From assembly GCA_016432585.1 (NCBI GenBank), contig CP066696.1, forward strand, positions 824,113-888,112: 64,000 nucleotides of DNA, in the 5' to 3' direction. A model generated the notes under the pieces. That model was given only the letters and a program-made list of their open reading frames with translations, had not been told where the DNA came from and did not search any database. Shown in pieces: positions 45,195 through 48,585 of this stretch (its first letter is position 1; each line of letters opens with the position of its first letter). Origin of the DNA: Candidatus Saccharibacteria bacterium. GTDB taxonomy: Bacteria > Patescibacteriota > Saccharimonadia > Saccharimonadales > Saccharimonadaceae. A program made the translations under genes and the position numbers.

Positions 45195-45674
45195 TTAGAA
45201 CTTTTCGTTTAACCGTTGGTTTAAGCGTTCTATCCGGTCTTCGACCGTCATTGTCTCGCGAAGCTGCGTCCGAGAAATAGCCGCCGCTGGTGTTATATCA
45301 CGCACATGCAAACTACAGTCGAGATCTTGGCAACATAAAAACGAACGAGATGATTTGTCCGAATCGACGATACTAATAATTGCCGAGTTTGAGCCCCGCT
45401 GCCATGTTGCGCATATATCGCAAATAATCGCTTCTACCCTGCCAGAGGCATTTGCCGTGCGTTTTTGCAATCGGAACGGCAAGATTCGCGTCGCTTCAGC
45501 GCGCGGTATAATCAAAACTCCCTCGGACTTGCTTTTATTCAACACCGCTAGAAAATCACGTTCTTTCCAGTGCGTTATTTCTTCGGGAACAAACCTAAGC
45601 TCGCGCTTAAGGCGCGGTTTTATATTTGCCTGTTTTAGCAGGTCTTCAAGTTCCTGCCGCGATACCGTATGCAT
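45195..45674 (-). CDS. FusB/FusC-type EF-G-binding zinc protein
   Basis: 159 residues. The C-terminal half has the treble-clef zinc pattern of the FBP_C domain: ICDICATW, then FLCCQDLDCSLHVRD. FusB proteins bind elongation factor G on the ribosome and free it when stuck, which can protect against fusidic acid. The helical N-terminal half (VSRQELEDLLKQANIK) fits. It lies 4 bp after the Gre gene. A TACAAT -10 spans the Gre stop codon and ends 6 nt before this ATG, so it may have its own leaderless transcript as well. Confidence 0.78.
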   Translation of the reverse strand: MHTVSRQELEDLLKQANIKPRLKRELRFVPEEITHWKERDFLAVLNKSKSEGVLIIPRAEATRILPFRLQKRTANASGRVEAIICDICATWQRGSNSAIISIVDSDKSSRSFLCCQDLDCSLHVRDITPAAAISRTQLRETMTVEDRIERLNQRLNEKF

Positions 45675-45678
45675 TCTT

Positions 45679-46137
45679 TTATTGTACCTCCTCGATATGC
45701 GTGGTGATATGCCCCACCTGTATCTCAGCCCCTACCTTCTTGCCAATTATCTGTTGCGCAAGGGGCGTATTGCAATTAATAACGATCGCTCCTTGCCAAT
45801 TTTGCCCAGCCCGCGGCGTCCAATCCCCTGCAACAAGATACGCTGCACCATTTTGCAATACCACCCGCGAGCCTATTCCTACCATGCCTTTTCTTGGCTT
45901 GGGTATGGTAAGTGAACTGCTACGCAAAACGTTTCGCAGCTGTTGTAATTCGGCATCTAACACGGATTGCCTGTCGCGAAGCGCATCGAACGGCGCGTTG
46001 TCGTGCCATGTTTCTGAAGATTGATTAAATACCTCGTAAAACTCTGGGCCGAGTGCCTGAATTTCATTTTGTAATTCGGAAATACGCGCCAACGCATACT
46101 GCCGGTCGTCATCTAAAATAACGAGCTCTTTAGCCAT
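45679..46137 (-). CDS. GreA/GreB-like transcript cleavage factor, altered tip
   Basis: 152 residues. An N-terminal antiparallel coiled coil (residues about 5-75) is followed by an FKBP-like domain with VVLQNGAAYLVAGDW and CNTPLAQQIIGKKVGAEI, as in GreA. In GreA the coil tip GDLSENAEY carries Asp41 and Glu44, which place magnesium at the polymerase active site. Here the tip reads ETWHDNAPF, so the first acid is Thr and the second is Asp. Cleavage stimulation may be reduced, or the factor may act differently. AGGAG precedes the ATG, and the leader holds the conserved 45-nt element. Confidence 0.8.
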   Translation of the reverse strand: MAKELVILDDDRQYALARISELQNEIQALGPEFYEVFNQSSETWHDNAPFDALRDRQSVLDAELQQLRNVLRSSSLTIPKPRKGMVGIGSRVVLQNGAAYLVAGDWTPRAGQNWQGAIVINCNTPLAQQIIGKKVGAEIQVGHITTHIEEVQ

Positions 46138-46165
46138 AAGATTCTCCTGTTGTTTATATAAGAAT

Positions 46166-46210
46166 CGCCAGCGGTTCGGCTCGTCCGAACGTGTTGCGAG
46201 CAGAGGATCC
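46166..46210 (-). promoter_or_regulatory. Conserved leader element, copy A (upstream of the Gre gene)
   Basis: Read on the minus strand it runs from GGATCCTCT through the hairpin GTTCGG-ACGAG-CCGAAC to CTGGCG, in the predicted 5' leader of the Gre gene (-10 TATAAT at 46234-46239, ATG at 46137). It matches copy B at 48051-48095 at 41 of 45 positions; all four differences are transitions outside the hairpin stem. The distance to AGGAG is similar in both. Confidence 0.8.
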
Positions 46211-46248
46211 TAAAGAGGATCATAATGATGATAATTATAGCATACAGA

Positions 46249-46277
46249 TTGACAACCCTATGTGTTTATGCTAATAT
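46249..46277 (+). promoter_or_regulatory. Consensus leaderless promoter
   Basis: TTGACA (46249-46254), 17 bp ending TTTATGC, TAATAT (46272-46277); the ATG at 46284 comes 6 nt later. It is divergent from the Gre promoter whose -10 lies at 46234-46239. Confidence 0.82.
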
Positions 46278-46283
46278 ACTAAG

Positions 46284-47402
46284 ATGAAGCCTGTTTTAGA
46301 CTTACCATCACCAAACGAACAGAATGAAAAAATAAACACGCCCGAAACCGAAAAATATCACGATCTTCTTCGCGATAATGCCGAGCAATTCTTAGCTCAC
46401 CCAGCGCTCGAAAAACTCATCGTCGCCTCGGAAGCGCTTGGTCGCCTCACCGATGAAGATATGGCTGAGCTCGTTGCTGCCCGCGAAGCTGGCAAAGCCG
46501 AGTACCTACGCAGCGTAGCGAAACTTGTCCAAAAAGCAATGGACTGGCGAACCGCCCCAGACGGCACAATACTTGAGCGCTGGGAAACTCCTAAAGACAG
46601 TGATTTGCCACCGGAATATTGTGAAGCTATCAAACAAGCCGGTATCGAACTAATGATGAACGACGAAGTGCCCGTCCCAAACAAAAAATTTAGTGTTGGG
46701 GCGGTTTTTGGCGCAACAGTAGTGCCTATCGCTAAACGTACCGACTTCTTCTACGACAGCCTTGAAGATGGCGTGGGTCAGATTGATACTTTAATCAATC
46801 TTGGAGCAGAACGTCCACTGGGTCCAGTAGACCGTAAGAATGCCGAAGCCTACCCCTATGTCAATAATGCCTCTGTCGAAACCGACCTCTTGGATTTAGC
46901 AGCGATTGATTGGTATACACGTCATGGCTACGCCGCCCCAAAGCTCTCGTATTATAGCCGTAGCACCGCCCTACGATGGGGGCCGACTTATGACACCACA
47001 TACAATATTCACACGATCGACGCCGAACAAAGCAGGCCTGATTGGGCACCCGAGATGTCATTCTCGCTTTCGGCCCCCTATGACAAAACTCACCACCCGC
47101 GTGCCAACACAGGAGAAACTCTCGATTTCGCAATGGAGATAACCGAGGTAAAGCCAGGCGACACAATGCTTGTTATTAGCCACCAACCCTACTTATTAGG
47201 GCAGCTTTTTGAGGCGCAGCGCGTCGGAATCGACCATGGCGTCCAGGTTGAAGGGGCTGGTTATGGCAACCTCAACCCTGCCCTTCCCGCAACAGTTTGG
47301 GGCGGCGAGATCGCGAAAGCCGCAACGAAAGCTAACGAGCTACTTGAAGCTATCGCTCAAGCCGAAGCAGCCTCATCTCAAGAGATGCCTCTTGCCGCTT
47401 AG
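46284..47402 (+). CDS. Uncharacterised protein, faintly DUF218-like
   Basis: 372 residues, soluble. The N-terminal third is helical (EKYHDLLRDNAEQFLAHPAL). The C-terminal part contains INLGAERPLGPVDRKNAEAY, ETDLLDLAAIDWYTRHGY, ANTGETLDFAMEI and GDTMLVISHQPYLLGQLFEA, an order of motifs resembling DUF218/YdcF-type proteins. The match is loose and I do not assign a function. It is transcribed from one of the best promoters in the window, leaderless, and its stop overlaps the converging rdgB by 4 bp. Confidence 0.7.
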   Translation: MKPVLDLPSPNEQNEKINTPETEKYHDLLRDNAEQFLAHPALEKLIVASEALGRLTDEDMAELVAAREAGKAEYLRSVAKLVQKAMDWRTAPDGTILERWETPKDSDLPPEYCEAIKQAGIELMMNDEVPVPNKKFSVGAVFGATVVPIAKRTDFFYDSLEDGVGQIDTLINLGAERPLGPVDRKNAEAYPYVNNASVETDLLDLAAIDWYTRHGYAAPKLSYYSRSTALRWGPTYDTTYNIHTIDAEQSRPDWAPEMSFSLSAPYDKTHHPRANTGETLDFAMEITEVKPGDTMLVISHQPYLLGQLFEAQRVGIDHGVQVEGAGYGNLNPALPATVWGGEIAKAATKANELLEAIAQAEAASSQEMPLAA

Positions 47403-47992
47403 GCGGTTTCGCGCAGCCACATAACAAAGCTTTTGTACGCCGATTTTTTGTCTTTTTCGACTCGGTGCAGCGCAAAATCTTCTTCGGTAAACTGGCTATA
47501 TGTCTTTCCGCCAAAGCCCGGAGGCGCGAATATCTTCCACAACGGCGACCATGCGTGTTCATGGTTGTTTTTGTCAATCGTAGTAATGATCTCGCCAACC
47601 GGATCTTGACCATCGAACGTATGAGTAGTGCCGTCCTCATCGACAAATACGAGCGAGCTCATAAAGTATGCACGACGGTCTTTTTTGCCCTCCATAAACG
47701 ACAAGATGCCTTCTATCCCCACTGTTTCAAGCATGTATTTGATATAAGGGCCAGGAAATCCACCAAGAGCATAAATATGAAACGAACTGTCATCAACCAA
47801 TACGGGTTGTTTAACAATTGCATACGCTTGCTTCGCTTTCACGGCGGCTACCTCGGACGCCGTATTCGCCTGCGGCTCGATAAGATCAAGAGATTTTTGA
47901 ACTACTTTTATATCTAAGTCATGTCCTTTCAAATACGCACGAAGCGATGCAACCTTTCCGCTGTTACCCGTTGCAAAGATGATCTCTTTCAT
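47399..47992 (-). CDS. rdgB: RdgB/HAM1-type nucleoside triphosphate pyrophosphatase
   Basis: 197 residues from the ATG at 47992. IIFATGNSGKVASLRAYL is the HAM1 substrate loop, followed by VLVDDSSFHIYALGGFPGPY and YSQFTEEDFALH. It removes inosine/xanthosine triphosphates or other non-standard nucleotides from the pool. TACAAT (48002-48007) lies 9 nt upstream, giving a leader of about 2 nt, and the longer frame upstream is therefore not used. It is divergent from the NUDIX gene, also a pool-cleaning enzyme type. Confidence 0.88.
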   Translation of the reverse strand: MKEIIFATGNSGKVASLRAYLKGHDLDIKVVQKSLDLIEPQANTASEVAAVKAKQAYAIVKQPVLVDDSSFHIYALGGFPGPYIKYMLETVGIEGILSFMEGKKDRRAYFMSSLVFVDEDGTTHTFDGQDPVGEIITTIDKNNHEHAWSPLWKIFAPPGFGGKTYSQFTEEDFALHRVEKDKKSAYKSFVMWLRETA

Positions 47993-48023
47993 AGTGCCAC
48001 TATTGTACCACGGGCACTCATGG

Positions 48024-48029
48024 TATACT
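48024..48029 (+). promoter_or_regulatory. -10 of the NUDIX gene promoter
   Basis: TATACT preceded by TGG (extended -10 type). Predicted start near 48036, placing leader element B and about 95 nt of 5' leader before the ATG at 48130. Confidence 0.6.
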
Positions 48030-48050
48030 TGAGCCATTACGATCCGCGTG

Positions 48051-48095
48051 GGATCCTCTATTCGCAATACGTTCGGACGAGCCGAACCACTGGCG
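48051..48095 (+). promoter_or_regulatory. Conserved leader element, copy B (upstream of the NUDIX gene)
   Basis: Same orientation relative to its gene as copy A: GGATCCTCT, then the GTTCGG-ACGAG-CCGAAC hairpin, then CTGGCG. It ends 34 nt before the ATG, with ACAGGAG in between. UCCU in its 5' part can pair with the AGGA of the ribosome site, a possible sequestration. Confidence 0.8.
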
Positions 48096-48129
48096 CTACG
48101 ACAACTAAAACTAAATTACAGGAGCTCTT

Positions 48130-48585
48130 ATGCAAGTACGACGAGTGGCGACAAGAGGCATTATTTTTAAAGATGGCAAGATGCTTTGCCAGCAGCTTAA
48201 AGCAGGCGACGACAATTCAAAACGCGATTACTGGTGTACGCCAGGCGGCGGCCTCGATATCGGCGAGTCGATCAAAGATGGGCTGTACCGGGAGATGATA
48301 GAAGAAACTGGCATTGCCCCAAAAATTGGCAAGCTTTTATTTATTCAGCAGTTTTCCGAAGACGGCGTTAAAGAACAGATGGAATTCTTTTTTCATATCG
48401 AAAACGCAGAGGATTACGAAGTGATCGACCTTAGCGCCACGACACATGGCGAGTTAGAAATCGAACATGTCGAGTTTGTCGACCCAACAAAACATAATGT
48501 CCTTCCGGCGTTTTTGCAGTCAATGGATATTCAGGCGCATATCGATTCTGGCGATCCAGTACACGTATACTACGAAACACACTAG
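48130..48585 (+). CDS. NUDIX hydrolase
   Basis: 151 residues. The Nudix box GLDIGESIKDGLYREMIEET with the following GI matches GX5EX7REUXEEXGU. It would hydrolyse a nucleoside diphosphate linked to another group; substrate unknown. CAGGAGCTCTT precedes the ATG. Its leader contains the element shared with the Gre gene. It converges on the ASCH gene with a 4-bp overlap. Confidence 0.92.
   Translation: MQVRRVATRGIIFKDGKMLCQQLKAGDDNSKRDYWCTPGGGLDIGESIKDGLYREMIEETGIAPKIGKLLFIQQFSEDGVKEQMEFFFHIENAEDYEVIDLSATTHGELEIEHVEFVDPTKHNVLPAFLQSMDIQAHIDSGDPVHVYYETH

Follow-up and report, generated by a model that had tools for sequence, protein, structure and literature searches.

Two short inverted copies of one element in the window (the whole stretch analysed here, 64,000 nucleotides from a Candidatus Saccharibacteria genome) are, with high confidence, MDR-NUDIX RNAs that serve as structured 5'-terminal cis-regulatory leaders of the genes following them, a divergent Gre-like factor and a NUDIX hydrolase. 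This confidence covers the identity of the element and its cis-regulatory nature; the sensing step lies outside it.

The copies lie at 46166-46210 (-) and 48051-48095 (+) and are alike at 41 of 45 nt (91%). As a sequence-only reading of this DNA had described, their four differences are transitions that all fall outside a GTTCGG-ACGAG-CCGAAC hairpin, and each copy stands between a -10 box and an AGGAG site with its ATG. A blastn comparison of copy with copy within the genome gives an E value of 2.5e-12, so the match is not due to chance. That reading took the element to be undescribed; however, both copies are recognized by cmscan as Rfam RF02918 (MDR-NUDIX RNA), scoring 67.7 bits before the Gre-like gene and 63.7 bits before the NUDIX gene against a gathering cut-off of 54.9 bits, with E values of about 1e-11 to 1e-10 for each. 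The window copies are ordinary members of this already catalogued family. The 45-nt extent holds as a core but not as the whole, since the full element is about 60 nt long and includes a second hairpin, P1 (GATCC-loop-GGATC), directly 5' of the core, the 3' arm of which is the first GGATC within the core. The principal features are as follows.

46165..46226 (-): MDR-NUDIX RNA (RF02918), leader of the Gre-like gene; cmscan and fold z (about -2.1 to -2.4)
46221-46217/46210-46206 (-): P1 of the Gre-like leader
46190-46185/46179-46174 (-): P2 of the Gre-like leader, with loop ACGAG at 46184-46180 and the outer helix round P2
46234..46239 (-): -10 box TATAAT, from sequence, 7 nt before the Gre-like element
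46144..46148 (-): Shine-Dalgarno AGGAG of the Gre-like gene, from sequence
45679..46137 (-): divergent Gre-like factor, 152 aa; NCBIfam greA, AlphaFold2 model and Foldseek
48036..48096 (+): MDR-NUDIX RNA (RF02918), leader of the NUDIX gene; cmscan
48041-48045/48051-48055 (+): P1 of the NUDIX leader
48062-48065/48093-48096 (+): outer helix of the NUDIX leader, one U.C mismatch
48071-48076/48082-48087 (+): P2 of the NUDIX leader, with loop ACGAG at 48077-48081
48024..48029 (+): -10 box TATACT, from sequence, 6 nt before the NUDIX element
48120..48124 (+): Shine-Dalgarno AGGAG of the NUDIX gene, from sequence
48130..48585 (+): NUDIX hydrolase, 151 aa; Pfam PF00293, 2.2e-12
C1:283010-282952 (-): third genomic copy, before a 586-aa ABC exporter gene
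G000:C1:583130-583342 (L176): third protein with a Gre C-terminal domain, 155 aa, its N-terminal half without the GreA tip motif

Alignment and pair counts place the RF02918 features in these copies, namely two hairpins, an outer helix, the ACGAG loop and the CCNCUA joins.

Target genes and distribution

The source genome is a single contig of 952,504 bases in which searches with RF02918 or with our own model, R1, find exactly three copies. The third precedes an ABC exporter gene that overlaps a second ABC exporter gene, and together the copies mark a set of three genes: Gre-like, NUDIX and ABC exporter. The NUDIX and third copies have the setting known for RF02918, a Saccharibacteria (TM7) leader before an MDR-type exporter or NUDIX gene. 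The Gre-like target extends the target list of the family and is absent from its name.

Within the same family of genomes, RF02918 matches occur in 78 of 394 (59 above the cut-off), compared to none of 14 control genomes. The set examined closely comprises the RF02918 matches of that family plus four from further families in the order, in all 104 copies from about 80 genomes. All 104 have the sense orientation and are followed by a homologue of one of the three proteins, which is an ABC exporter for 62 copies, a NUDIX protein for 32 and the divergent Gre-like factor for 10; the worst blastp E value against the window targets and the third-copy exporter is 2.4e-31. The distance from element to start codon ranges from 18 to 103 nt with a median of about 35-40, and a genome may bear the element before one, two or all three types of target. 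A sample of 380 genomes across the phylum reveals no spread beyond the order, with matches only in the same family and in one genome of the same order, while an order-level sample gives matches in a few further families. Exact-pattern matches in GTDB fall on contigs labelled Saccharibacteria, Saccharimonadia or just bacterium; a search of phages returned no match. The further leader copies that the sequence-only reading had proposed seeking by covariance model exist, and its description of the targets as stress- or polymerase-related is right.

The Gre-like protein is a divergent paralogue. It matches NCBIfam greA at 4.9e-8, below the cut-off of that model, and its AlphaFold2 model (pLDDT 84, weak at the tip) has GreA, Gfh1 and GreB as best Foldseek matches. 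In 13 homologues, an invariant coiled-coil tip, SETWHDN-P-F, replaces the GreA tip GDLSENAEY, and the source genome also encodes a canonical GreA and the further Gre C-terminal-domain protein listed above. In a sample of 121 genomes the divergent gene occurs in eight, and the element or a remnant of it precedes the gene in all eight. For the NUDIX gene, a clear copy is found before about 17 of 30 orthologues and about 13 of 30 are without a strong copy.

Folding, transcription start and variant forms

Across 97 distinct sequences, standard pairs fill 97.0% of pair cells versus 80.9% in shuffles and double-change cells number 218 versus 56, the alignment having been fitted to the structure so that part of the pairing signal is expected. 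Pairs such as CG/UA/GC/AU in P1 and P2 are beyond what fitting alone gives. Double changes occur in 14 of 15 pairs, making the stem covariation anticipated by the earlier reading strong, and pairing falls to 18-51% when the partner is slid by 1-3 columns. At one pair, U-G is present in 22 sequences and C-A in 3 on the sense strand, which argues that it is the sense-strand RNA that folds. Comparative sequence analysis thereby shows a predicted RNA structure of P1 and P2 hairpins with an outer helix round P2; beyond the 15 known pairs, no covarying pair or pseudoknot stands clearly above the null. The covariation in further copies and their leader placement support the cis-regulatory RNA interpretation of the earlier reading.

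Of 100 leaders, 70 have a -10 box whose end lies 6-7 nt upstream of the element, compared to about 6 by chance. This fixed spacing suggests that the RNA starts at the element (+1), and the conserved ACUAUGA is probably the 5' end of the message. Several NUDIX orthologues that do not have the element carry, by eye, a -10-like box a few nt before the ATG and seem leaderless, so the element would be an added 5' UTR. In many leaders (L084, L098, L102, L109, L122, L135 and L140), a near-fixed strong promoter, TTTTGCATC...TATTATACTATATAAT, is observed upstream of the element.

Both halves of the element contain the repeat A-Y-G-[hairpin]-C-C-N-M-U, each closing on a G-C pair. Of 100 elements, 80 contain at least two such units, versus 7 of 5000 letter-shuffles, a count that speaks to presence and not to the significance of half-to-half likeness given that letter-shuffles lose all structure too. 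Judging from the sequences, these units and not the ACGNG loop appear to be the most constant part of the element. Five NUDIX leaders (L215, L224, L226, L239 and L242) are without the ACGNG loop and outer helix and keep the units, those of L226 and L242 being off by one or two letters; four of the five are absent from the RF02918 match list. With these loop-less leaders as part of its training set, a relaxed model, R2, picked up more ABC exporter leaders, some seemingly with P1 only. R2 matches below about 25 bits, most of which fell within genes or at a distance from the three targets, were discarded except for L281, L282 and L284, which precede ABC exporter genes. In one genus, Gre-like leaders (G094, G133, G160 and G201) retain P2 but have a missing or degenerate P1; the Gre-like leader of one genome, G093, has P1 only. 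Loop-less and one-hairpin relatives of MDR-NUDIX RNA thus escape the Rfam model and precede the same genes, and some of the single-hairpin forms may be decaying copies.

Mode of action and related systems

With transcription beginning at the element, each such mRNA would carry it as the 5' end. There it may sense a signal, for which a small compound that is toxic or nucleotide-like is the likeliest candidate, and could thereby change how translation starts on all three kinds of gene together, those for export, nucleotide cleaning and assistance to polymerase. Possible routes are occlusion, the opening of access upstream of the Shine-Dalgarno site and an effect on mRNA stability. As far as gene annotation alone can indicate, a toxic nucleotide-like or polymerase-directed compound would suit the three targets. 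The sequence-only reading had proposed that UCCU pairs with the ribosome site, but the pairing of an element with its own Shine-Dalgarno site is no stronger than that obtained with swapped elements, and the base after UCC changes to G or A without a shift in the site. Since this pairing is unconserved and a T5 run occurs in only 10 of 80 linkers, the switch probably involves neither a terminator nor a simple anti-Shine-Dalgarno helix. A search for a conserved alternative fold with the Shine-Dalgarno site found none, and so no conserved expression platform; with no clear extra covarying pairs either, the switching step is not seen.

Direct ligand sensing, as in a riboswitch, and a protein-binding leader are close rivals. 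The former is a serious possibility to which we would give slightly less than even chances, and the existence of one-hairpin variants fits a compact ligand pocket poorly. Under the latter, which is plausible at perhaps one chance in three, a dimeric or multi-site protein would bind the two AYG-[hairpin]-CCNMU units and repress or protect the mRNA. The same letters flank both hairpins, elements devoid of the ACGNG loop and outer helix still have both units, and forms with P1 or P2 alone are kept upstream of the same genes, a modular loss that is easier with a repeated protein site than with a single ligand pocket. However, the single-hairpin forms may reflect decay, and the tandem hairpins of guanidine-II also make up a riboswitch (PMC5486947). 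An element that acts constitutively as a 5'-end stabiliser or translation enhancer, and senses nothing, is improbable: its apparent start at +1 and the unseen expression platform would agree with such a role, but the strict limit to three gene families and the conserved unpaired letters exceed the needs of a plain hairpin, and there are only three copies in the whole genome. A 5' hairpin can protect mRNA, which is the general ground for considering this role.

Two further readings carry very little weight. The AUG found at positions 4-6 in 79 of 84 strong copies could open a ribosome-stalling leader peptide at +4, yet this candidate was rejected because the resulting uORFs vary widely in length, between 2 and more than 50 codons; element lengths are also spread over all three frames, and the NUDIX copy of the window has ACG in place of AUG. 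Palindromic stems near promoters would likewise be expected of a double-stranded DNA operator for a transcription factor, an explanation that is hardly tenable given that the element lies downstream of the -10 box and that its U-G pairs, with compensatory changes at most stem letters, show conservation of pairing and not of stem sequence.

Among known RNAs, RF02918 shares sequence, structure, taxon and two of three target genes with the window copies; as named and modelled it is without the Gre-like target and the loop-less and one-hairpin variants found here. The family (type Cis-reg) is reportedly due to Weinberg et al. 2017, a work outside the reach of the literature search, which found no paper naming MDR-NUDIX. 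The Gre-like target, repeated unit and variant forms go beyond the name and model of the family, and no first report is claimed. The guanidine-II riboswitch (mini-ykkC) is similar in its tandem leader hairpins, ACGR-like loop (ACGNG or ACGG in P2 here) and downstream export genes. In contrast to guanidine-II, which requires an ACGR loop in both hairpins and targets SMR pumps, MDR-NUDIX RNA has a P1 without ACGR, its loop variable in length and sequence, and targets ABC exporters. The Rfam search of the window copies gave no guanidine-II match and the link is one of resemblance only. The ykkC subtype 2c (d)NDP riboswitches respond to nucleotides in controlling NUDIX hydrolase genes (PMC7266159) and offer a possible model for the MDR-NUDIX signal, but they are unrelated in sequence and architecture and have no Rfam match in the window copies.

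What had been taken as an undescribed element becomes a named orphan RNA with better clues: a third target pointing to RNA polymerase, an apparent +1 start and an invariant repeated unit, along with natural variants that separate the essential from the optional parts. These clues narrow the search for the ligand or protein of MDR-NUDIX RNA and provide a rare view of gene regulation in Patescibacteria. It is conceivable, if rather unlikely in its entirety, that MDR-NUDIX RNA belongs to a wider family of tandem-unit leaders and that this family defines a Saccharibacteria stress regulon, which brings together a drug exporter, a nucleotide-cleaning enzyme and a specialised Gre-family factor whose tip is unique; the signal would be a toxic compound, perhaps one from actinobacterial hosts or their neighbours that acts on nucleotides or on RNA polymerase.

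History of the window copies and their surroundings

The closing pair of the outer helix is G-C in 22 of 28 NUDIX elements versus 1 of 64 others (Fisher 9e-15). It marks the NUDIX class, as expected if each copy passes down together with its gene. At this position the NUDIX copy of the window has U.C, and it carries a Gre-type base in an otherwise NUDIX-specific pair. Both window copies also share an extra A, a one-base insertion rare in others, and their likeness is 0.89 compared to a within-genome mean of 0.74. Such features could be taken to favor a mobile repeat or a recent duplication and nothing more, but inheritance with the gene and the sense orientation of every copy before three gene families leave this account next to no credence. 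The sequence-only reading was correct in doubting a mobile repeat. Its alternative of recent duplication does not hold for the loci, both of which are old; for the copies themselves, the shared insertion and Gre-type base suggest local gene conversion from the Gre copy as the simplest account of their close match.

In one genome (G036, L069, 4001-4175), the Gre-like gene and the NUDIX gene are immediate divergent neighbours, and two elements stand head to head between them, 56 nt apart; unlike that arrangement, two other genes separate the Gre-like and NUDIX genes in the window. An ORF of 372 aa at 46284-47402 (+), divergent from the Gre-like gene and without a Pfam match, has a TATACT-like box a few nt before its ATG and may be leaderless. 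Downstream of the Gre-like gene, 45195-45674 (-) encodes an FBP C-terminal treble-clef zinc finger (PF16571). Divergent from the NUDIX gene, 47992-47399 (-) encodes a Ham1/RdgB-type XTP/dITP pyrophosphatase (PF01725, 1.4e-29), a second nucleotide-cleaning enzyme at this locus, whose gene starts about 45 nt away from the element.
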